A stretch of DNA of 64,000 nt, taken from contig OX638323.1 in assembly GCA_951812715.1 (NCBI GenBank), positions 3,266,577 through 3,330,576 of the forward strand. Reading direction: 5' to 3'. A model generated the notes under the pieces. The model worked only from the letters and a program-made list of their open reading frames with translations, did not search any database and was not told the origin of the DNA. Shown here one piece after another: positions 12,179 through 63,468 of the stretch. The DNA comes from an uncultured Pseudohongiella sp. (GTDB lineage: Bacteria; Pseudomonadota; Gammaproteobacteria; Pseudomonadales; Pseudohongiellaceae). The position numbers and the translations under genes were made by a program. The first letter of the stretch is position 1, and every line of letters begins with the position of its first letter.

Positions 12179-12344
12179 TTCCGGTTCTCCTCGCGCACCA
12201 ATGCAATCACGGTGCGCATCAACGACATTTACATCAAGCCGGGTTCTACTCCCGGACTTGGACTCATGAAAGTCGTTTCTGGAAAAGCCTGCGAAGCGCA
12301 AACTTTCCGCCTGCGGAAGACTGGTCCCGGTCTTCGGGCGAACG

Positions 12345-12540
12345 ACGCGATGGCAGGTCTCCTGGCTCACCGATCCTTACTTGCGGCCGCCTTCCCGGAG
12401 CGCGCTCCAGTGGCATTCAGGCCGGAAGTTCCCGGTTTACAGTTGCGGGCACAGCCACGGATTTACACCGTGTTCCCAATGCCGCCGAGGCTGGCGGCTC
12501 CATCTGCCCGGCAGTGTGCCGGGCTCGCGGCGCGGAGTCA
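12345..12540 (-). promoter_or_regulatory. Cobalamin (adenosylcobalamin) riboswitch
   Basis: Read on the minus strand, the conserved core occurs in the right order: GGGAACACGGTGTAAATCC (about 12461-12479), GCTG and CCCGCAACTGTAAA (about 12436-12450), GCCACTG (12408-12414), GGGAAGGC, and AGCCAGGAGACCTGCC (about 12352-12367). This matches the RF00174 consensus. The 5' boundary at the first paired stem is approximate. It lies about 170 bases before the btuB start and should lower expression of the seven-gene operon when B12 is plentiful. Whether it works by termination or by blocking translation is not clear from sequence. Confidence 0.95.
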
Positions 12541-19661: not shown

Positions 19662-19961
19662 GAGTTACTCCTTGAATGTCGTCTTTCGCCCGAGGCAGGA
19701 CTATGGGAAATGGCCGCGGCCGGGCCAGCATATCAGAGTCGGCCGGAAACTGGATTCTCACGATCCAATACGACTATTGTTCCAGTCACCTGGCAATCGA
19801 CCGGGATAGCCTGCCAATGCGCAATGAAATGCATTGCTGGGACACCCACTGTCAATCCTCCGAGAGACTCCATTTTCCGTATCGGCCCGAAAGAAAGTTG
19901 GGGAATCACGATGGCACCCATCGTGGCATGGTCAACCGGCGCATCAGCGGGAATGCGACGA
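19662..19961. other. Intergenic region with duplicated upstream DNA and a dispersed repeat
   Basis: No gene seen. Bases 19662 to about 19830 resemble 22053-22210, upstream of the decayed symporter copy. The start of a dispersed repeat (TGGGACACCCACTGTC) lies at 19838. Confidence 0.5.
19838..19880. repeat. Short dispersed repeat, copy 1
   Basis: Starts TGGGACACCCACTGTCAATC and continues to CTCCATTTTCCG. It is near-identical to 20503-20546, and its outermost 12 bases recur reversed at 183-194. It looks like one end of a small mobile element, but no partner end or transposase was found. Confidence 0.5.
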
Positions 19962-20458: not shown

Positions 20459-21615
20459 TCATGTCCGACCGGTAGCCGGCATCCAACTCATCGATGCATC
20501 GATGGGACACCCACTGTCGATCCCCTGGGAGACCCCATTTTCCGCCTCCCCGTCAATCAGTGACGAGAGTCGAGAAAAGAGGGCAATTGATGGAACGGAA
20601 TAACCGATTGTCCATTTTCGTCCCTTCTGGCATTGGCGCCCGTGTAGGCGGCCGCGCCGGTAAAGCAGGTCAACCTCGTTGCCGTTGCTATCCCGGAAGA
20701 AGAACAATTCCGCGGGCCGATTCCGATTCAGATCGAACTTCATGATTTCGTTTACCACTGCGTTCTCGAACAGAGCCCCGCGTAGCGGCTGGCGTTCGAC
20801 ATGCTCCGGACTGGTGAGGCCAAGCAAATAGCAGGCTACGCCCGTATCGTGGAAATAGAGCTTGGGACGTTTGACGAGACGCTTGCGGATATTGCTGAAC
20901 CAGGGTTTGAGCCGAAATAGGACATAGCTCGCTTCCATGAGATTCAGCCAGTCGCCTGCCGCAGTCTGGCTGATGCCGCAGTCTTTCGCCAACTGGTTCA
21001 GATTGAGTATTTGCCCGATATTGGCCGCGCATAGCTGCAACAACGTTTGAAATCGCGAAGTATCCCGTACCGCGCTCAACTGGCGCACATCGCGCTCCAG
21101 ATAAGTGTCGACGTAATCACGATAGAAATTGGTTGGTTCGAGTCCTGCATCGAAAATTCGTGGATAACCGCCAGTGAACGTATGATCGAACCAGTTTTCC
21201 GGGGCCGCATCGGCGCGCGCAAGCTCTTCGCGGGAAAACGGCAACAGGGTGAGCAAGGCAGTTCGCCCCGCGAGCGACTGACTCAGAAGCTGTCGCGCGG
21301 AAAAGTTGTGACTTCCGGTCAGCAGGAATTGTCCGGAGCGGCCGGATTCGTCAGTTCTGACCTGGATCTAGGAGGTCAATTCCGGCGCGCGTTGAATTTC
21401 ATCGATTATGGCGCCGTCCGCGTACGCGGCAAGAAAGCCGCGGGGTCGCCGGTCGCGAACTCGCGCTCGTCCGGCGCTTCAAGGTTGACATAGGGAAGAT
21501 CGAACGCGCCGCGGGCCAGCGTGGTTTTGCCGGACTGCCGCGGCCCGGTCAGTGTCACGAAGGGATATTGTTTAAAAGCCGCCAGAGCGGCTTCGGCAAG
21601 AATCCGGGGAATCAT
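20459..21615 (-). pseudogene. AAA ATPase with DUF4143 domain, multiply disrupted
   Basis: The N-terminus (from ATG 21615) has Walker A TLTGPRQSGKTTLA. A one-base deletion near 21430 shifts the frame; the next part, DGAIIDEIQRAPEL, continues in another frame and meets a TAG near 21369 where family members have a tyrosine codon. The DUF4143 half (20650-21256) is well preserved: FTGGYPRIFDAG, YVDTYLERDVRQL, YFHDTGVACYLLGL and FFRDSNGNEVDLLYRRG. After that the C-terminus is replaced by unrelated sequence containing the dispersed repeat of 20503. Three separate lesions make it a pseudogene. Intact members are ATPases of unclear role, often horizontally spread. Confidence 0.85.
20503..20546. repeat. 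Short dispersed repeat, copy 2
   Basis: Starts TGGGACACCCACTGTCGATC and continues to ACCCCATTTTCCG, matching 19838-19880. It lies where the DUF4143 gene loses its normal C-terminus, which suggests the element truncated the gene. Confidence 0.5.
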
Positions 21616-23660: not shown

Positions 23661-25913
23661 TCAGAAGCGTTTACCGACGGTGAAGCTGACGCCGCGCGGC
23701 GGTCCGTAATAGGACAGCGCCACGCCGGGATACGAGAGCAGGTCGAAACCATGCACGATGTAGGCCTCGTCGGTGATATTGGTGACAGCGAGGCGGGCGT
23801 GGAATCCGCTCGCGAAATGCTCCCACCAGGCGGTGAAATTGGCGATGTAGTAATCGTCCTGCATCAATGAAGGCTCGTTCATGATCGTGGTGAAATAGCT
23901 TGAACTGCCTCGCACCTGGCCGCTCAGGGTCAACGACCAGTCAGCCGTACCGTAGGCATTCCAGCTCGCGCCGGCGCCCCAGGTGAAATCCGGCGCCTGG
24001 ATCAGATCGAAGTGGCTGAGATCCTGGATTTCGCCGCTAGCGAGATTGGGCGCGTTGTACTCCTGGTACTCGGCGTCGAGCACGCCGGCAAAGGCGCTCA
24101 GCCGCAGATCGGAATTCGGCGCCGCGCTGAGTTCGAATTCGAGGCCCTGGGTCACGGCTGCGCCGGCATTGGAAAAAATGGCGATGAAACTGGCGTTGGC
24201 CGAACCGAAACTCGACAGTTGCATGTCTTCGTAGTCATTGCGAAAAGCCGCCGCGTGCAGGCTGAACCGGCCGTTCCGCCAGTTCCGTTTCAGGCCCGCT
24301 TCGATGGAAGTGACAAATTCTTCATCGTAGGGGTCGGCCTCGTTGTCGTCGCGCGAGCGACCATTGAATCCGCCGCTCTTGAAGCCGCGAGTAGCGTTCA
24401 GATAAAGCAGCAATTCATCGTTTGGCTGATAGCTGATGCCGAGCTTGGGGGAGAATGCGCTAAAGGTTTTTTCGCCGACCGTGGCGAAACTGAAGGGCAG
24501 CGCGGCCGCGTCGGCAAGATCGGCAAGCGTGATTCCGGGGTTGCCGAAGCCGATCGCGCCGTTATAGACCCGGTTCAGGCGCTTGTCATCGCTGGTATAG
24601 CGGGCGCCGGCGGTCAGTTCGAGATTTTCCCCCATCGGCAAGGTCAATTCACCGAACACCGCCCGGCTTTTCGTTTCCAGGTCATTGGTCGATGCCGTGG
24701 AAAGACCGTAATCGAACCCCGGAATGCCAAAAAAGGAGATATTCGCCTCCGGTCCGAAAACGCCGTCGGGAGTGATATCGGCTTCGTCGAAGTAGTACAA
24801 GCCGGTGACCAGGGTGGCGCCATTGTCGAATTCGAACAATGCCTGTAGTTCCTGGCTGAATTGTTCCTGTTGCTGATGCACGAAAACGCCGAAGGCCGCC
24901 ACGTCGTCCCCGTCGAGATCGAGAAATGAGTCGTGTTCGATTTCCCGCCAGGAAGAAATTGATTTCAAGCTCAGAACATCATTGATCCGCCAACTCGGTA
25001 TGATGGAAAAGCCACGCGTGGTCAGCCGCTCTTCATGATTGAAATCGGCATTGACCTTGAAGGGTCCCGGATTGGCGTCCTCAAGGCCGAGCAGTTGCCC
25101 GACTATCGATACCGCTTCCACTGATGGCGTCACGGAAGTATCCGGATCATTGTCCGAGTAGTCGATGCTCAGTTGCAGATCGAAGTCGCCGCCATCGTCG
25201 AACAGCAACTGGCCGCGGAACACGGAAAGCGCCTTGTCGCCGTCGTCGGCGCCGTCTGCGAGATTTTCCGACCAGCCATCCCGACTCAGGCGTCCAAGGC
25301 TCAACCGACTGGACACGTTTTCGCTCAGAGGCAGGTTCAGCACCGCGCTTAGCTCGCGCTGCCCGTAGTTGCCTATGCCGGCTTCAATGTCGGCGGAAAA
25401 CTCCGCCTCGGGCCGAATCGAAACGTACTTGATTGCGCCGCCAATGGTGTTGCGCCCGTACAAGGTGCCTTGTGGGCCGCGCAACACTTCAATGTGATTG
25501 ACGTCGAACAGTTCAAGAAAGGAACCCTGGGCTCGGCCGAGATAGACGTCGTCGAGATAAACCGCGACGCCCGGGTCGGCGAATGAAAGCGAATCGCGCT
25601 GGCCGATGCCACGCACATAGATCACGGCGTTGGAAGCATCGCCGACATCCAGGCTCAGGTTGGGAGTCAGCATTTCGAGTGATCCGAGGTCGGCCGCGCC
25701 GATTCGTTCGAGATCGTCGCCGGTGACCGCGGTTACCGCCAGGGGAGTTTCCCCGATGGGCTCGGCGAAACGCCGGGCTTCCACAATGATACTTTCGATG
25801 GCCGGGTCATCCGGCGGCGCCTGGGCCAATACAACGGAGCCAGGCAGCCCGGAAGCGGTAATGGCCAGTAAGGCAGCCATTCCTGTTGCGGGGTAACTAT
25901 CTGGAACTTTCAC
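23661..25913 (-). CDS. TonB-dependent receptor of unknown substrate
   Basis: About 750 residues. Signal peptide (MAALLAITASGLPGSVVLAQ), plug domain (ETPLAVTAVTGDDLERIG, YVRGIGQRDSLSFADPGVAV, IEVLRGPQGTLYGRNTIGG) and a barrel ending VGKRF. It belongs to the large receptor group, common in sphingomonads and marine gammaproteobacteria, with SFADPGVAVYLDDVYLGR. GTG 25913, preceded by GGAGG seven bases away, is chosen over the upstream frame start at 26111. It is divergent from fpr and runs into the alpha/beta hydrolase gene. Iron complexes or small organic ligands are possible; the sequence does not decide. Confidence 0.92.
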   Translation of the reverse strand: MKVPDSYPATGMAALLAITASGLPGSVVLAQAPPDDPAIESIIVEARRFAEPIGETPLAVTAVTGDDLERIGAADLGSLEMLTPNLSLDVGDASNAVIYVRGIGQRDSLSFADPGVAVYLDDVYLGRAQGSFLELFDVNHIEVLRGPQGTLYGRNTIGGAIKYVSIRPEAEFSADIEAGIGNYGQRELSAVLNLPLSENVSSRLSLGRLSRDGWSENLADGADDGDKALSVFRGQLLFDDGGDFDLQLSIDYSDNDPDTSVTPSVEAVSIVGQLLGLEDANPGPFKVNADFNHEERLTTRGFSIIPSWRINDVLSLKSISSWREIEHDSFLDLDGDDVAAFGVFVHQQQEQFSQELQALFEFDNGATLVTGLYYFDEADITPDGVFGPEANISFFGIPGFDYGLSTASTNDLETKSRAVFGELTLPMGENLELTAGARYTSDDKRLNRVYNGAIGFGNPGITLADLADAAALPFSFATVGEKTFSAFSPKLGISYQPNDELLLYLNATRGFKSGGFNGRSRDDNEADPYDEEFVTSIEAGLKRNWRNGRFSLHAAAFRNDYEDMQLSSFGSANASFIAIFSNAGAAVTQGLEFELSAAPNSDLRLSAFAGVLDAEYQEYNAPNLASGEIQDLSHFDLIQAPDFTWGAGASWNAYGTADWSLTLSGQVRGSSSYFTTIMNEPSLMQDDYYIANFTAWWEHFASGFHARLAVTNITDEAYIVHGFDLLSYPGVALSYYGPPRGVSFTVGKRF

Positions 25914-26109
25914 GGCAATTCCTCCGGACAAGCCAATATCCGGAAATTCTAGAAATGCCACAACTGCATAACAATACGAGATATTTCCGAAGAAATTGCA
26001 CGGAAATTCTGCCGCAAATATTGCGCATTTGTGTTGAACGATGGCATTGATGCGACCAGTTAAATTATCATGACGCCACTTTCCGAAAAGCAATTCCGCA
26101 GCGAAAAGC

Positions 26110-26853
26110 ATGGCTCAATGGATTGAAGGCACCATAGTTTCAAACCAGCGCTGGACCGAAAACCTGTTTTCCATAAAGGTGGAGGCCGACGCCGAGCAGT
26201 TCATCGCCGGGCAATTCACCAGCCTGGCGCTCGATATCGACGGTCAACGCGTGGCGCGGCCGTACTCCTATCTCAACTCCCCGGGCGAGCGGCCGCTGGA
26301 ATTCTTCATGTACCGGATTGTCGGGGGAGCGCTCACCAGCGCCCTGATCGATATGCAGCCGGGCGAGAATGTCTGGGTAAAGAATCCGGCCAACGGCTTC
26401 TTCGTCTTGCGGGAAGTGCCGCCTTGCGAAGACATGTGGATGCTCGCAACGGGCACCGGGATTTCTCCGTACTTTTCGATTCTGAATACCGATGAGCCCT
26501 GGGAGAGATTCAAGCGAATCGTACTTGTGCACGCGGTGCGGTGGGAGGTGGATCTTCGCTATCGGGAAATAATCGATTCGCTGAAGCACCAGTACGGCGA
26601 CCGTTTCGCGTTTCAGGCATTCATTAGTCGAGAACAGGTGCCGGAGACAATCCACGGCCGGATTCCCGCATCGATTATCGACGGTGAACTCGAACGCCGC
26701 ACCGGAATCGAAGCTACTGCGGAAAAATCGCATTTCATGCTTTGCGGCAATCCGGATATGGTCCGGGATACCACTGAAGCGCTGAAAGCGCGAGGTTTCG
26801 CCAAGAATCGGCGGCGCACGCCAGGGCAGATCACCACCGAGAACTATTGGTAG
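26110..26853 (+). CDS. fpr: Ferredoxin-NADP+ reductase
   Basis: 247 residues of the bacterial FPR type. FAD-binding RPYSYLNSP near residue 56, GGALTSAL, the NADP-binding ATGTGISPYFSIL near 114, CGNPDMVRDT, and a C-terminal TTENYW typical of the family. It moves electrons between NADPH and ferredoxin or flavodoxin. It stands alone, divergent from the TonB receptor, and its stop is only about 10 bases from the first hairpin element. Confidence 0.93.
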   Translation: MAQWIEGTIVSNQRWTENLFSIKVEADAEQFIAGQFTSLALDIDGQRVARPYSYLNSPGERPLEFFMYRIVGGALTSALIDMQPGENVWVKNPANGFFVLREVPPCEDMWMLATGTGISPYFSILNTDEPWERFKRIVLVHAVRWEVDLRYREIIDSLKHQYGDRFAFQAFISREQVPETIHGRIPASIIDGELERRTGIEATAEKSHFMLCGNPDMVRDTTEALKARGFAKNRRRTPGQITTENYW

Positions 26854-26863
26854 CCGGCGGGGT

Positions 26864-27412
26864 GAGGCCCGGTCGGCGCAGCCGACGAAAAGCGCAGCTT
26901 TTCGAGGGCCGAACGACTTGCCAAGGACTGGCAAGGCTGGAGATTGGAGAAACCCAAATATTCGCGCCAGGGATGGCATGCACAAACCTAATAGAGGACA
27001 AATTGCCCGGTCGGCGCAGCCGACGAAAAGCGCAGCTTTTCGAGGGCCGAACGACTTGCCAAGGGCGAGGACAAGCGATTACGAAACATCAGTTTCGTGC
27101 GCAGGCCGAGCGCCATCAAGCTGTGCTTGATGGCCGGACTGGCAAGGCTGGAGATTGGAGAAACCCAAATATTCGCGCCAGGGATGGCATGCACAAACCT
27201 AATAGAGGACAAATTGCCCGGTCGGCGCAGCCGACGAAAAGCGCAGCTTTTCGAGGGCCGAACGACTTGCCAAGGGCGAGGACAAGCGATCACGAAACAT
27301 CAGTTTCGTGCGCAGGCCGAGCGCCATCAAGCTGTGCTTGATGGCCGGACTGGCAAGGCTGGGGGTCGGAGAATCCGCCGAACTCGCGCCAGGGACGGCA
27401 TGCGCAATCCCG
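26864..27412. repeat. Multi-hairpin element, three tandem copies (family A)
   Basis: Three copies start near 26868, 27006 and 27217 with CCCGGTCGGCGCAGCCGAC. Each has GTCGGC-GCA-GCCGAC, then GAAAAGC-GCA-GCTTTTC, closed by GGCCC/GGGCC, then CTTGCCA...TGGCAAG. Copies 2 and 3 (211 bases apart) carry about 75 extra bases between the last two arms, holding CGAAAC-ATCA-GTTTCG and a perfect 10-bp hairpin GCCATCAAGC-TGT-GCTTGATGGC; copy 1 lacks them. They fill the convergent gap between fpr and the amidase gene. No gene is visible. Role unknown: a REP/MITE-like element, a 3' RNA stabiliser or a structured RNA are all possible. Confidence 0.85.
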
Positions 27413-29072: not shown

Positions 29073-29678
29073 TTATTCGTGGCGCAACGCTTCTACGGGA
29101 TGCATATCGGCAGCGCGTATGGAAGGGTGAGGCCCGGTCGGCGCAGCCGACAAGAAGCACAGCTTCTTGAGGGCCGAACGACTTGCCATGAATGGCAAGG
29201 CCGGGGCCAGTCGGAGCCAATACACCCGCGCCATGGATGGCGAGTAGGATACGAACAGGAACCATACCCGTACGTCATTCATGCCGCAAGGCCTCGACTG
29301 GGTCCATATCCGCCGCTCGCATGGAAGGGTGAGGCCCGGTCGGCGCAGCCGACAAGAAGCGCAGCTTCTTGAGGGCCGAACGACTTGCCATGGAAGGCAA
29401 GGCCGGGGCCAGTCGGAGCCAATACACCCGCGCCATGGATGGCGAGTACGATACGAACAGGAACCATACCCGTGCGTCATTCATGCCGCAAAGCCTCGAC
29501 TGGGTCCATATCCGCCGCTCGTATCGAAGGGTGAGGCCGGGTCGGCGCAGCCGACAAGAAGCACAGCTTCTTGAGGGCCGAACGACTTGCCATGAATGGC
29601 AAGGCCGGGGCCAGTCAGAGCCAATACACCCGCGCCATGGATGGCGAGTACGATACGAACAGGAACCATACCCGTACG
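29073..29678. repeat. 202-bp tandem array: hairpin element plus macB tail, three units
   Basis: Units begin at 29073, 29275 and 29477; the next copy of the tail, at 29679, belongs to the intact permease gene. Each unit reads, on the minus strand, as the last 16-17 MacB codons (PSIRAADMDPVEALRHE or close variants) plus stop. The family A element follows (GTCGGC-GCA-GCCGAC; AAGAAGC-RCA-GCTTCTT; CTTGCCA...GGCAAG). The leftmost tail (29073) differs from its neighbour at about 12 of 48 bases yet keeps nearly the same protein sequence (DMHPVEALRHE, stop TAA). The other units are nearly identical to each other. Confidence 0.92.
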
Positions 29679-31014
29679 TCATTCATGCCGCAAGGCCTCG
29701 ACTGGGTCCATATCTGCCGCTCGTATCGAAGGGTATATCCCAAAGATCACACCAATCATGGCGGAAATGGAAAACGCCAGGATCGGCGCCACCGGGGTGA
29801 CGATCGTGGTCATGCCCCAGAAAGTCGAAATGAAGAAGGGGATGGTAATGCCAAGCACCACGCCGATCAGCCCGCCAACCGCGGACAGAATCACCGCCTC
29901 CACCAAAAACTGGGTAATGATGTCGGACTTTCGCGCGCCAAGCGCGCGGCGAATGCCGATCTCGCGAGTGCGCTCGGTGACGCTGGCGAGCATGATGTTC
30001 ATAATGCCGATGCCGCCTACCAGTAGTGAAATGCCGGCTATGGCGCCGGCCACGATTTGGTCGCGCAACGCGCTTTCCTCAGCCTGGCGCAGCAGCGCCA
30101 GGGGAATTTCGATGGTGTAGTCCACATTCTTGTGGCGGCGTTGCAAAATCTGATCGATAACCTCGCCGACATTGATCACCGTTTCCTGATTGTCGACCTG
30201 GATCACCGCTTCGTGCAGCTCAACGGTTTCCGATTCCATACCGCCCGCGGTTTGCCGGGTCGTCGTTTCGCCGAATCGGCTGCGGGACGCGGTTAACGGA
30301 ATGAATACCCGGGCAGGGGCCGAGTTGGACGCGCCGGCCTGATTTTGTCCAAGGTTGGAAAAACCTTCGGATTCCATGATGCCGACCACATCGTAATAAT
30401 CACTGTCGATACGAACCGACTGGCCGAGAGGATTTTCGAATGGGAACAGCGCATCGGCCGCTTCCTGACTCAATACCACGACGTTTCCGTGATCGCGCAT
30501 TTCCGATTCGCTGAAAAAGCGGCCGTCTCGCAGTCCGTAATTGCGTGAGGTGGGGTAGTCGACCGCGGTGCCCACCACGTCTACATTCATGCTGTTGCCG
30601 AGATTCCAGATGTTTTTCTTGACGATGCGTGAGGAAATAACATTGCTGACGCCAGGTATGGTGTCACTAATCGTCTGAATATCAGCGTGGGTCAAGCCGT
30701 AGACGATGGCCTGGGGCGGGCCGAATCCCAGGCGCGAGGATTCCTCGACTGCCACCGGCTTGACGCTTTTTACGAGAATATTGTTTGCGCCGAGGTCGCG
30801 GAATTGTTGTTGCGCCTCGAAGCTGGCGCCTTCGCTTACCGCCAGCATCGCGATCACCGCCGCCACGCCGATGACGATGCCGAGCACGGTGAGCATGGAG
30901 CGCAGGCCGTGGGAAAAAATACTCTTAACGCCCAGACGGGTGATCTGGCTGATGCGCCAGCCGAACCGGGACCGCCGGTCGCGTTGCCGGCTTTCGGGCG
31001 CCGGCGGCAGAGAG

Positions 31015-31034
<20 letters not shown>
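29679..31034 (-). CDS. MacB-type ABC transporter permease
   Basis: 451 residues without a fused ATPase. N-terminal helix (LRSMLTVLGIVIGVAAVIAM), a large periplasmic domain (about 70-320), then three helices including GGIGIMNIMLASVTERTREI and IGIRRALGARKSDIITQFL, ending PSIRAADMDPVEALRHE. This is the MacB/FtsX layout (mechanotransmission rather than transport through the membrane, by family knowledge). It overlaps the ATPase gene by 20 bases. Its last codons are repeated three times downstream in the hairpin array, so the present 3' end may be a restored one. Confidence 0.92.
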
Positions 31035-41773: not shown

Positions 41774-41881
41774 GCTTTTCGCTCCTCGTTCGGGCAGCCG
41801 CAAAACATTGCGTTCCGCAAGGCGCTTCATCGTATCAACTAGCCGCCGGGGCGCAAGCGCGAGCGATCCAACCGCCTACAG

Positions 41882-42129
41882 CCGTCGTCATCAAGCGACA
41901 GCAATTCCGCGTTGCCGCCGGTGGGTGAGGCCCGGTCGGTGTAGCCGACAGCAAGCATGGCTTCGAGGGCCGAACGACTTGCCAAGGGCGAGGACAAGCG
42001 TCAGTTTCGTGCGCGGGCCGAGTGTCATCAAGCTGTGCTTGACGGCCGCAGTGGCAAGGCTGGGGAGTTGGAGAATCCGCGAGAGCCGCGCCAGGGATGG
42101 CCTGCGCGATTACAAACAGATCGTCGACA
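41882..42129. repeat. Multi-hairpin element (family A) with a second copy of the putA tail
   Basis: The element starts at about 41927 (GGTGAGGCCCGGTCGG) and has GTCGGT-GTA-GCCGAC, a partly decayed second hairpin (AAGC-ATG-GCTT), CTTGCCA...TGGCAAG and the inner CATCAAGC-TGT-GCTTGA arm. Left of it, 41890-41925 encodes on the minus strand TGGNAELLSLDD, the same residues as the true PutA end at 42137-42172. The two DNA copies differ at three bases, all third codon positions. No gene is otherwise visible between putA and the dehydrogenase. Confidence 0.85.
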
Positions 42130-45100
42130 TCAGGCGCTGTCATCGAGCGAGAGCAATTCCGCGTTACCGCCGGTAGCGACGGTATTGACGGTGACTACCC
42201 GTTCCGTGGCAAAGCGCGGCAGATAATTCGGACCCCCCGCCTTCGGCCCCGTGCCCGACAGTCCCCGGCCGCCGAAGGGCTGGGAGCCCACCACGGCGCC
42301 GGTCATGTTGCGGTTGGCGTAGAAATTGCCCGCGCCCACCATGGCGGCGGCTTGTTCCATGCGCGACTGGATGCGGGTGTGAATGCCGAAGGTGAGGCCG
42401 TAACCGGAACGGTCTACCTCCAGCAGCACGCTGGAAAAATCTCGCTCCTTGAATCGGATGACATGGAGGATGGGACCGAAATGTTCCCGTTCCAATTCGC
42501 CGATGTTGTCGATCAGCGCCAGACTCGGCGCGAGGAAACAGCCGTTTTCGCATTCCCCGGAAAGCGCCGCCTGATGCAACAATCGCCCGCGTTCGCGTAG
42601 CTTGTCGATATGCGATTGCAGGTCGGCGGCGGCGGATTGCGAAATGATCGGCCCTATGTCGGTTTCGATTTGCGACGGGTCGCCGACGTGAAGCTCGTCC
42701 ATCGCGCCGCGAATCAGGGCGATGGCTTGATCCGCGATTTCCTCTTGCAGATAAAGGACGCGCAGGGCCGAGCAGCGCTGGCCGGCGCTAAGAAAAGCCG
42801 AGCGGATCACGTCGTCGGCAACCTGTTCGAGCAAGGCTGTCGAATCGACGATCATGGCGTTCTGTCCGCCGGTTTCGGCGATCAGCGGGGCAATCGGCCC
42901 TTCCTTGTCCGCCATGGCCCGATTGATCCTGCGCGCGGTTTCGGTGCTGCCGGTGAAAGCGACGCCGGCGCTTAGCGGATGCCGCACCAGGCGCTCGCCC
43001 AGGGCGCCATCGCCGATCAGCAGGTTACAGACGGCATCCGGCACTCCCGCCGCGTGCAACAGCCGCACGGCCTCGCAGGCGATGATCGGAGTTTCCTCGG
43101 CCGGCTTGGCGACCACCGCATTGCCCGCCGCCAGGGCGGCGCAGATCTGACCGCAAAAAATCGCCAGTGGAAAATTCCACGGGCTGATACAGACGAATAC
43201 GCCGCGTCCGCCGAGTTTCAATTCGTTGCTTTCACCAGTGGGGCCGGGAAGGGCAATTCCTGCCGTGAATTCATCCCGCGCCTGGGCCGCGTAGTAGCGG
43301 CAGAAGTCCACGGCTTCGCGCACTTCGTCCACGGCGTCCGGAATCGTCTTGCCCGCCTCGCGGCAGAGAATCGCGATCAACTCAGGTCGCGCCGCTTCGA
43401 GATTGTCGGCAAAGCGTTCGAGCAGGCTCGCGCGGTCATCGCCGCCGGCTTTGTTCCAGTTCGGCTGTGCCGCCGCGGCGCGCCGGAGCGCGATCTCGAC
43501 ATCGGCCTCGGAGCTAGAATCAATATCGCCGAGGACATCGCCGCGATCGGCGGGACTTGAAGCCGGCTCGGCGATGGTTTCAGCGGCTTCCGTGACGGGC
43601 AGACCAGTCGCGGTATAGCGCCGTCGGCGTGATTTTTCCCAGGCGTTTCGCAATTCAGCCACAACAGCATCGTTGGTCAGATCGGCGCCGCTGGAATTTT
43701 GTCTTGGCTCGAAGATCTTGGCCGGCGGGGCAATGCGCGGATGCGCCGCGGGGCTCGCCTTGCGCACCGCATCGATCGGGTCGCGCACCAGCTCTCCGGC
43801 ATCGAGCCGGGTATCGAGCAGACGATGCACGAAAGAACTGTTGGCGCCGTTTTCCAGCAGCCGGCGCACCAGGTAGGGCAGCAAATCGTCATAATTGCCG
43901 ACGGGAGCATAAGTGCGGAGCGCGGGGAAGTCGTCGTATTCGCGTTCGGCGGCGGCGTAAAGCGCCGTGCCCATGCCATATAGCCGCTGAAACTCAAACT
44001 CGCGGCTATCGCCGGCAAGATGCATGAGCGCCGCGATACTGTGAGCGTTATGGGTGGCGAATTGCCCATAAAGCGTTTCGGGCCGCTCCAATATTCTGGC
44101 GGCGCATATCAGCCAGGAGAGATCGGTGGCGCATTTGCGGGTGTAGACCGGAAAACCCGGATATCCATGCTCCTGGGAGTGCTTGATTTCCGCATCCCAG
44201 TACGCCCCCTTCACCAGGCGCACGGGTATGCGGCGGCCATGGGCGCGCGCGCGCATGGACAGCCAGTCGAGCAGCGGCAAGGCGCGCTTGCCATAGGCCT
44301 GCACCACGAACCCGAGTTGAGCGGCAGCGGCGCCGGCGTCCTCAAGCAGATGTTCGAACACTTCCAGCGACAGTTCCAGCCGGTCGGCTTCTTCCGCGTC
44401 GATGGTGATGGCGACGCCGCCGGCGGCCGCGGCCCGGCACAGTTCCACGGCGATCGGAACGAGTTCATCGATAACCCGCCCGCGCTGACTGTGCTCGTAA
44501 CGCGGATGCAAGGCCGAAAGTTTGATCGATATCGACGGATCGACTATTCCCGCGTCCTTGCCGCGGTTGGCAACGGTGTCGATGGCGTAGCGGTAGGCCT
44601 GCCGGTAACGTTTCGCGGCGGCGGCGTCCCTGGCCGCTTCCCCGAGCATGTCCCAGGAATGCCGTTCGCCTCGCCGGCCGCGTTGCAGCGCCTTTTCGAT
44701 GGTGGAGCCGACCACGAATTCCCGGCCGAGGATGCCCATGGCCGCGCGCATGGCGGTTTCCACGACAGGTTCGCCCAGACGATGACTCAGACCGCCAAGC
44801 CAGGACTTCGGGTCAGTGGAAAATTCGCGCTCCGGCTCGACCAGCTTGCTGCCGAGCATCAGGGCCCAGGTGGAAGCGTTCACCAGCAGCGAGCCCGATT
44901 TGCCGGCATGTGCGGTCCAGTCCGCAAACCCGATCCGGTCCGCGATCAGCCGCTCGGCGGTGGCGCGATCCGGAATGCGCAACAGGCTTTCGGCCAGGCA
45001 CATCAAGGCGATGCCTTCCTTGTTGCTGAGTCCGTACTCGACGAGAAAAGTATCGAGCAGTGAATGGTTGGCCGTGTCGGCCCGCGCCGCGCGCACCAGT

Positions 45101-45240
45101 GTCGCCGCGCGCGACTCGATCCGTTTCGCGTCGTCCGCGGCATATGGCGCCAGGTGCAGCAAATGCTCCACCATCTTGTCTTCTTCGCGGAATTTCCAGC
45201 CGGCAATCTTCCGGCGGATTGTGTCGGGATTAAACTCCAT
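42130..45240 (-). CDS. putA: Bifunctional proline dehydrogenase / L-glutamate gamma-semialdehyde dehydrogenase
   Basis: About 1036 residues. The N-terminal part is the arm and the FAD-dependent proline dehydrogenase barrel (SIKLSALHPRYEHSQRGRV, RIPVRLVKGAYWDAEIKHSQ, QFATHNAHSIAA). From about residue 520 comes the NAD-dependent aldehyde dehydrogenase with VFVCISPWNFPLAIFCGQI, the Glu in LIAETGGQNAMIVDS and catalytic Cys in FLSAGQRCSALRVL. It converts proline to glutamate. The ribbon-helix-helix DNA-binding domain of enterobacterial PutA is absent, so it should not repress its own gene. ATG 45240 (MEFNPDTIRRKI) is preferred to a TTG at 45288. Its last codons are duplicated beyond the hairpin element. 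Confidence 0.95.
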   Translation of the reverse strand: MEFNPDTIRRKIAGWKFREEDKMVEHLLHLAPYAADDAKRIESRAATLVRAARADTANHSLLDTFLVEYGLSNKEGIALMCLAESLLRIPDRATAERLIADRIGFADWTAHAGKSGSLLVNASTWALMLGSKLVEPEREFSTDPKSWLGGLSHRLGEPVVETAMRAAMGILGREFVVGSTIEKALQRGRRGERHSWDMLGEAARDAAAAKRYRQAYRYAIDTVANRGKDAGIVDPSISIKLSALHPRYEHSQRGRVIDELVPIAVELCRAAAAGGVAITIDAEEADRLELSLEVFEHLLEDAGAAAAQLGFVVQAYGKRALPLLDWLSMRARAHGRRIPVRLVKGAYWDAEIKHSQEHGYPGFPVYTRKCATDLSWLICAARILERPETLYGQFATHNAHSIAALMHLAGDSREFEFQRLYGMGTALYAAAEREYDDFPALRTYAPVGNYDDLLPYLVRRLLENGANSSFVHRLLDTRLDAGELVRDPIDAVRKASPAAHPRIAPPAKIFEPRQNSSGADLTNDAVVAELRNAWEKSRRRRYTATGLPVTEAAETIAEPASSPADRGDVLGDIDSSSEADVEIALRRAAAAQPNWNKAGGDDRASLLERFADNLEAARPELIAILCREAGKTIPDAVDEVREAVDFCRYYAAQARDEFTAGIALPGPTGESNELKLGGRGVFVCISPWNFPLAIFCGQICAALAAGNAVVAKPAEETPIIACEAVRLLHAAGVPDAVCNLLIGDGALGERLVRHPLSAGVAFTGSTETARRINRAMADKEGPIAPLIAETGGQNAMIVDSTALLEQVADDVIRSAFLSAGQRCSALRVLYLQEEIADQAIALIRGAMDELHVGDPSQIETDIGPIISQSAAADLQSHIDKLRERGRLLHQAALSGECENGCFLAPSLALIDNIGELEREHFGPILHVIRFKERDFSSVLLEVDRSGYGLTFGIHTRIQSRMEQAAAMVGAGNFYANRNMTGAVVGSQPFGGRGLSGTGPKAGGPNYLPRFATERVVTVNTVATGGNAELLSLDDSA

Positions 45241-45439
45241 GGTCTTGGCTTTACTTCCTATATTGAGAGAATTGGCGTTGGCGAACAAAGTTCAGTGGCA
45301 ACGTAATTCCAGGCAGGTAAAAAAGCGAGTTGAATGCAGGTTGCGAAACATGCCGCGGTTCCGGGGTTCGATCCCGAAAGCTGACAGGAATGCTCGCGCG
45401 TGATAGGATTCGCGCCCTTATTTGCCCTGTTTACCCGTC

Positions 45440-53977: not shown

Positions 53978-54159
53978 GACAGGGCAGGTTCGCCAGCCAT
54001 CTGCTGAACAGCGCGCGGATTCTGTTCGATCTCGCATGCCTTCGCTGGCGCGAATTTCGGGTCTTCGCCAAATTCCAGTCTCGACATCCCAGCCGAGCCG
54101 TTCGGGTCACATATAGCAATGCTTTTTGTCGGCTTTACCGATCGATCCTCACCCACGCC

Positions 54160-62187: not shown

Positions 62188-63468
62188 TCATGCAGCCTCT
62201 CTGCTGTTTTCGTTGATCACTTCTTCGCCGTCCCTGAATTTCACTCCTTCGATGACTTTGCCGAGTTGCCGGAAGCCGCGTAGCCGCTTCCAGGATTTCT
62301 CGTCGCTTATCCCCATCTTGCAGATCATCGACAACATCGTCTTCCGCGTCACGCAACCCTTGGCCCGCAAACTCCGGTGGCGGATCGTCGCGAACGCCGA
62401 TTCGATCACGTTCGTCGTGCGCAAATGCGTCCAGTGTTTGGCCGGAAAGTCGTAAAACGAGAGCAGCTCCTCCCGGTCCCGGCTCAGGCAGCCCGCGGCC
62501 TTCGGATACTTGTCTTGATAACACGCCAGCCAGCGGTCGAAAACGCGCTCGGCCCGTTCCCGGGTTTCCGCCTTCCAGATCTCATGCGGGCCCTCCTTCG
62601 CCTTCGGCTGGCTCGACTTGGGCAAATAGTTCAGCACGTTGCCAGACTTGTGCATCCAGCAGCGCTGGCCGCGCGTCTCTGGATACACCGCCGACAGCGC
62701 CGCCCAAAATCCCAGCGCCCCGTCACCCACCGCCAGCTTCGGCGGCTTCTTCAACCCCCGGTCCTTCAGCCCCAATAACACTTCCCGCCAACTTTGCGTC
62801 GATTCCCGCACCCCGTCCTCGATCGCCAGAAAATGCTTCTCCCCATTGGCGTTCACGCCTATCACCACCAGCGCGCACAAGCGTTCTTCCTCGCCGCGCA
62901 GACCACTGTGGATACCGTCCACCCACAGATATACCCAGCCGTCTGTCAGCTCGCCGCTCCGTCAGGCCTGGTACTCCGCGTACCATGCACGCTTCAGACG
63001 GCTCACCACATTCGACGACAGACCCTAGGCAGTCTCTTCCCCCACCAGGGCCGACACCGCCTTGCCCATGTCCCCAGTCGAAATCCCCCGCAAATACAGC
63101 CACGGAATCGCCGCGTCCAGACTCGCGCAGCGACGCACATACCGCAGCGCCAACGAGGAATGAAACGGCTCCAGCTTGCCCGAACGTCCGCGCGCCTTCG
63201 GCACCGAAACTTCCCCCCCCCCCCCCCCCCCCCCCCCCCCGCCGATTCCGGTCAGAATCTCCCGTGCGGGAAGATAGCCATTGCGAACCACCCGACGACG
63301 CCCGTCCGGCAGCCGCTCTTCGCTGAAAGCAGACAGGTATACCTCAAACTCCGCCGCGACAGCGACTTCAACCAGACGTCTGGCGTTGCGGCGCAGCAGG
63401 TCGGTCAATGGATCGGCGGCGACTCCGGCCGCTGGCGCGGATAGGGAAACTATATTATCTTTACTCAT
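62188..63468 (-). pseudogene. IS256-family transposase with two in-frame stops and a 28-C tract
   Basis: From ATG 63468 (MSKDNIVSL) the frame is continuous but meets TAG at 63025-63027 and TGA at 62962-62964 (in a place where Trp, TGG, is expected). DDE residues are all visible: WVDGIHSGLR, LAVGDGALGFW and TTNVIESAFATIRHRS. Near residue 77 the plus strand has 28 consecutive C (63213-63240), read as a glycine run where relatives have a short GPV-like segment. The frame is kept on both sides of the run. Stop codons make it non-functional. Confidence 0.93.
63213..63240 (+). repeat. Homopolymer of 28 C
   Basis: An uninterrupted run of C inside the transposase gene. Such long G/C runs either slip in replication, giving length variants, or mark an assembly artefact. 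The window alone cannot tell. Confidence 0.95.

Follow-up and report, generated by a model that had tools for sequence, protein, structure and literature searches.

The YPAL (RU-2) repeats of Yersinia are about 168 bp long, not A+T-rich and built around internal inverted repeats; they are intergenic, are co-translated with upstream genes, and occupy sites that are empty in some relatives and filled in others, with target duplications of 3-26 bp (PMC2229807). Rickettsia palindromic elements (RPEs) are hairpin repeats of ~105-146 bp that enter protein genes and alter their coding sequence (PMC2229807), and the 3' ends of rayt genes were captured as inter-repeat segments in four BIMEs (PMC2817692). 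YPAL is the nearest described analog of the repeat analyzed here (hereafter, family A), which works like YPAL and echoes BIMEs. Our search of the literature on repeats of the Pseudohongiella-like clade, to which the bearers of family A belong, found nothing.

Family A is a GC-rich repeat whose unit spans about 130-200 bp and contains several hairpins. We started from its copies in a 64,000-bp stretch of an uncultured Pseudohongiella genome (hereafter, the window); 123 matches were detected in that genome as a whole. Single copies have a sharp 5' edge beginning GGGTGAGG and a ragged 3' edge that fades out; a middle module is optional, and tandem or nested arrays are frequent. In the arrays of L034, L041 and L045, copies were apparently inserted in the hairpin loops of other copies (GCCATGGAT followed by GGGTGAGG, and GAGCTATGCT followed by TGGGTGAG). 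The hairpins covary, with 93% of cells paired and 16 double changes compared to 4.9 in shuffles, and the covariation score was reached by 0 of 500 shuffles. An Rfam search of the window returned only chance-level matches at family A and none at the gathering score, by which a known structured RNA family was ruled out. The sole gathering-score match in the window was a cobalamin riboswitch (12335-12519, minus strand, 117.5 bits), and a run of 28 C is found at 63213-63240.

In general, family A is located at gene 3' ends, and many upstream stop codons lie 8 bp or less from the element according to a mechanical gene call. In ~10 cases among 45 clusters the element's own TGA (GGGTGA, element positions 4-6) is the in-frame stop of the upstream gene (e.g., L049:14292, L060:3203, L051 and L056). 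One relative (G043, L105) has family A at the stop codon orthologous to L060:3203 while two others (G044 and G045) are empty there, indicating that an old insertion was lost on two occasions or that this position was used more than once.

The likeness to YPAL, drawn from its described features, covers size, a composition that is not A+T-rich, internal instead of terminal inverted repeats, an intergenic location, co-translation with upstream genes, empty and filled sites, and variable duplications. Family A differs in its modular build, tandem nesting and host clade, and in duplications that reach ~45-50 bp and are absent at most sites. With REPs and BIMEs it shares many copies, hairpins just after stop codons and tandem arrays, and the captured rayt ends are a close precedent for the macB array described below, although the tails captured by family A come from unrelated genes. 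Its 130-200 bp unit with several hairpins and the start GGGTGAGG is also unlike the short single hairpin with a GTRG-type head of REPs. Both RPEs and family A are hairpin repeats that enter protein genes; RPEs are read through in frame inside genes, whereas family A usually ends the gene, often supplying the stop codon. Like the MITEs of DDE transposons (Correia, RUP, ERIC), family A is small, non-coding and high in copy number, but it has neither a short fixed target duplication nor terminal inverted repeats (the best terminal 15-mer match was 9/15, no better than shuffled). The RAYT, terminal inverted repeat, fixed-duplication and reverse-transcriptase tests were all negative for family A as a REP/BIME, a MITE or a reverse-transcribed element (retron, group II, SINE-like).

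The clade bearing family A consists of Pseudohongiella-like Pseudomonadales MAGs. The repeat is abundant in the window's genome (G000) and in G018, G021, G022, G043, G044 and G045. Only one or two matches were obtained in each of two further congeners, and none in the rest of the sampled genus. No match was obtained in phage and plasmid records, and no exact core match in viral contigs, which ruled out spread on phages, viruses or plasmids within those collections. Family A further departs from REPs and BIMEs in the enzymes of its hosts: neither Y1_Tnp (PF01797) nor the RVT_1 reverse transcriptase (PF00078) was matched in the seven element-rich genomes searched, several of which are incomplete MAGs and one, the window's own, a single contig, whereas Y1_Tnp was matched in all eleven element-poor or element-free congeners tested (once below the family cut-off). 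REPs typically form hairpins close to stop codons, and variable duplications are typical of target-primed reverse transcription. Family A is a hairpin repeat near stop codons with variable duplications, and a REP-type (RAYT/Y1) transposase or reverse transcription could be imagined to move it and to give it variable ends; given the outcome of the two enzyme searches, such a mover is very improbable.

At putA, one family A copy is flanked by two copies of the gene's tail (Table 1). The element reads GGGTGAGGCCCGGTCGG... on the plus strand, and its variable 3' extension reaches ~42124. On the minus strand, TGGNAELLSLDD is encoded at 42139-42174 (inner copy, the real PutA end) and at 41887-41922 (outer copy). 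The full repeat pairs 41879-41922 with 42131-42174 (44 bases, spacing 252, 86% identity), with an E-value of 1.9e-9 in the 64 kb window, and is therefore not due to chance. The sequence-only reading had placed the putA tail on both sides of the element, which was confirmed with a correction of 2-3 bases in the coordinates, and had described the copies as differing only at third codon positions. The latter is true of the 36 bases it chose (3 differences, all silent) but not over 45 bases, where the 7 differences are 3 silent codons, S/D, A/G, and a stop to Cys change that leaves the outer copy without a stop codon. Drift under protein selection, which it had also proposed, fits the inner copy only, as the outer one has lost its stop. 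This pattern is as expected with one tail under selection and the other untranslated and free to change, so nothing further has to be invoked for putA.

Table 1 Features of the window at and around the family A copies.
Feature	Position	Strand	Basis or remark
putA, bifunctional proline dehydrogenase / glutamate-semialdehyde dehydrogenase	42130..45288	-	NCBIfam NF008869 PutA, 1419 bits; Pfam Pro_dh and Aldedh
Inner putA tail, the present functional 3' end, ending TGGNAELLSLDDSA and stop	42130..42174	-	Codon-level comparison of both copies
Single full-length family A copy with middle module, antisense to putA	41923..42112	+	blastn against other copies (window and genome); aligned with 20 other single copies
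Outer putA tail, the ancestral end, stop codon lost, still joined to ancestral downstream DNA	41879..41922	-	Empty sites in L121 and L123
MacB-like permease gene, 3' end repeated	29679..31034	-	Pfam MacB_PCD and FtsX
Four macB-tail copies split by three short-form family A elements, period 202	29075..29734		Ancestral end represented by the outermost copy (29075-29128)
Third family A cluster, with three units at a period of 211, located between convergent genes	26860..27408	+	No long flanking repeat; at most ~7 bp overlap
Degenerate single family A copy	54036..54154	-	No flanking repeat

To find the ancestral state of this gene end, we relied on relatives with an empty site. A single putA tail without the element was present in L121 (the same contig locus as G022; PutA 86% identical) and L123, and the region directly following it corresponds to the one that follows the outer copy in the window (TTGCGC...TTGATACGATGAA.CGCC), so the outer tail is the ancestral end. 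When aligned to the empty site of L121, the two putA flanks overlap by 45 bases; the overlap of 74 obtained with L123 includes a right-flank alignment that runs on into the element. The element at putA is thus lineage-specific, and its insertion duplicated about 45 bp, with the inner copy now ending the gene. The sequence-only reading had suggested a target duplication of about 40-50 bases, in good agreement with this value and with the single tails of the two relatives. A further relative (G044, L122) also has no family A at putA, and other DNA follows the gene. What follows there is an apparent insertion sequence (IS110-like by eye), which hints at repeated insertion behind this gene. Import of the inner tail from G044 was ruled out, as the body of putA contains no tract of raised identity to that genome. 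The fold of the putA copy alone is ordinary (z 0.05), and as that of a short-form copy is unusual (z -3.8), the putA copy has probably decayed.

The same arrangement, which had also been noted at macB from the letters alone, recurs there in the order tail-element-tail-element-tail-element-tail, and at one further locus, the gene for a 129-aa protein (L041:9779-10168). A family search with this protein gave no match; it may resemble YqfO/NIF3. At both genes, relatives have an empty site whose single tail is colinear with the outer copy, and the overlap is 49-50 bp for macB and 41 bp for the 129-aa gene. In each of the three long cases, the outer tail stops precisely where the 5' boundary of family A lies. 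An integrative element that captures gene ends through its own att site was ruled out, as each locus has a different tail and the majority have none.

Only at macB is silent-only divergence of the tails statistically striking. The outer and inner tails differ at 13/54 positions, about as much as between species (8-15), while the inner tails differ mutually by only 2-3 bases. Of the 13 differences, 11 are at third positions and one residue is changed; the third-position excess has a P of about 0.0002 under neutrality (differences spread evenly over codon positions), which overstates the surprise because those changes that arose in the inner copy should be silent anyway. The pattern suggests an exchange of one of the two tails for that of a diverged allele. 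Such an exchange of the gene end may have followed a recent insertion, or else the tails had their origin in two separate lineages from the outset.

This population clearly recombines often with its relatives: tracts 97-100% identical to one relative lie beside stretches of 77-85% identity, and two tracts end at an element. The window at 25001-26853 is up to 98-100% identical to OX638341.1 (G044), ends just before the family A array at 26860, and gives way to ~77% identity beyond; it is a tract of recent recombination, and its boundary falls at the element. A 99% tract to G044 at L055:2700-3226 ends at a family A copy as well. Exchange of this kind might itself have built the tail-element-tail order, if the element sat after the putA stop in one strain and ~45 bp upstream in another, and a crossover occurred inside it. 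Such a history accounts for the exact element boundaries at both tails, the rarity of the arrangement and the silent macB divergence, and draws on exchange that is evidently common. However, the element would have to have inserted twice independently within the population, both times in one orientation and close to the same gene end. In addition, the ends of putA, macB and the 129-aa gene are free of the element in all relatives examined, and the similar overlap lengths at three loci are left unexplained. We therefore consider it unlikely.

How general the duplication is was examined with two methods. The flanking-repeat screen, which detects only repeats of ~35 bp or longer at ~78% identity or better, covered 45 clusters from the window and selected genome stretches (a few copies near 2.22 Mb were left out), and found long flanking repeats at 3 of them, namely putA, macB and the 129-aa gene; none was found at 40 further clusters from related genomes. 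Because of the detection limit of this screen, an empty-site comparison of 14 clusters with three relatives was added, with the value taken from the best-preserved site where relatives disagreed. The overlaps were positive at five loci: about 50 (macB), 45 (putA), 41 (129-aa gene), 17 and 7 bp. The 17 bp overlap (L055:4377) is visible by the empty-site method only, and the one of about 7 bp is at window position 26860. The other nine comparisons showed no duplication, with 6-40 or more empty-site bases unaligned, and these negative overlaps may be due in part to intergenic DNA that fails to align and not to loss of bases. As the overlaps range from ~+50 to negative, a fixed target duplication is excluded, and duplication of the gene end is an occasional outcome.

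The expectation of the sequence-only reading that gene-end duplication is how the element generally inserts or spreads thus did not hold: family A copies carry flanking gene-end repeats at 3/45 clusters, a long repeat was undetected at 42/45 here and at 40/40 testable clusters in relatives, and most empty-site comparisons lacked a duplication. Its counter-hypothesis, coincidental tandem duplications of gene ends in which the element is uninvolved, does agree with most family A copies, which have none. Yet the duplicates abut the exact 5' edge of the element in three separate genes, and the empty sites lack both element and duplicate, leaving coincidence with almost no credibility. A 51-base direct repeat elsewhere in the window (19829-19879 and 20494-20544, 86% identity, 614 bases between) has no family A copy.

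A transposase that always makes a long target duplication, most of which have since decayed beyond recognition, might also be imagined. Its merits are the precise 5' end, the similar size of the three long duplications, and the existence of insertion sequences with 16-28 bp duplications (IS1202 group, PMC10132070). Empty-site alignment would reveal old duplications, yet none was seen at most loci although all of them are insertions when compared to the same relatives, and family A has no terminal inverted repeats; we regard this mover as quite improbable.

Beside what was directly observed (the duplicated tails, the empty sites in relatives, the ancestral status of the outer copy, the infrequency of such scars and the spread of overlap lengths), we favor, at a probability of roughly 60%, insertion of a non-autonomous hairpin-rich repeat, mostly at gene 3' ends, with a variable overlap between its two joints. 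Family A would enter mainly gene 3' ends, mostly at stop codons, and the extent to which its joints overlap the target would vary. A copy would have landed immediately behind the putA stop codon in this lineage alone, in antisense orientation, with its 5' end joined ~45 bp upstream of the 3'-end joint, so that the stretch in between was made twice. The inner tail would keep the gene intact and stay under selection, and the outer tail, as the old end, would decay. The same event at macB may have been followed by tandem amplification via exchange between the repeated tails. The variable overlap could come from copying and rejoining, e.g., a switch of template during replication or the repair of a break with widely staggered ends. 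Scars may have been kept by selection since the gene end was saved. Against a variable joint, the three long overlaps are alike in size (~39-52 bp), which is not required of a random joint, and simple insertion plus drift does not account for the near-silent divergence at macB unless allele exchange is added. More speculatively, and doubtful as it stands, family A may spread without a transposase or reverse transcriptase of its own kind: host replication would switch template at hairpins near gene ends, each jump would re-enter at a variable distance, sometimes copying and sometimes trimming the gene tail, and a captured tail would become part of the repeat in tandem arrays.

These loci clearly document the states before and after insertion of a highly abundant hairpin repeat, whose element-rich hosts gave no Y1 transposase or reverse transcriptase matches, and make the spread of such repeats a testable question. 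They are also a warning for annotation, since a conserved fragment that looks coding and lies next to a repeat can be the scar of an insertion. For the host, the repeat can enter a gene end and yet leave the gene working, through tail duplication or through its own stop codon.
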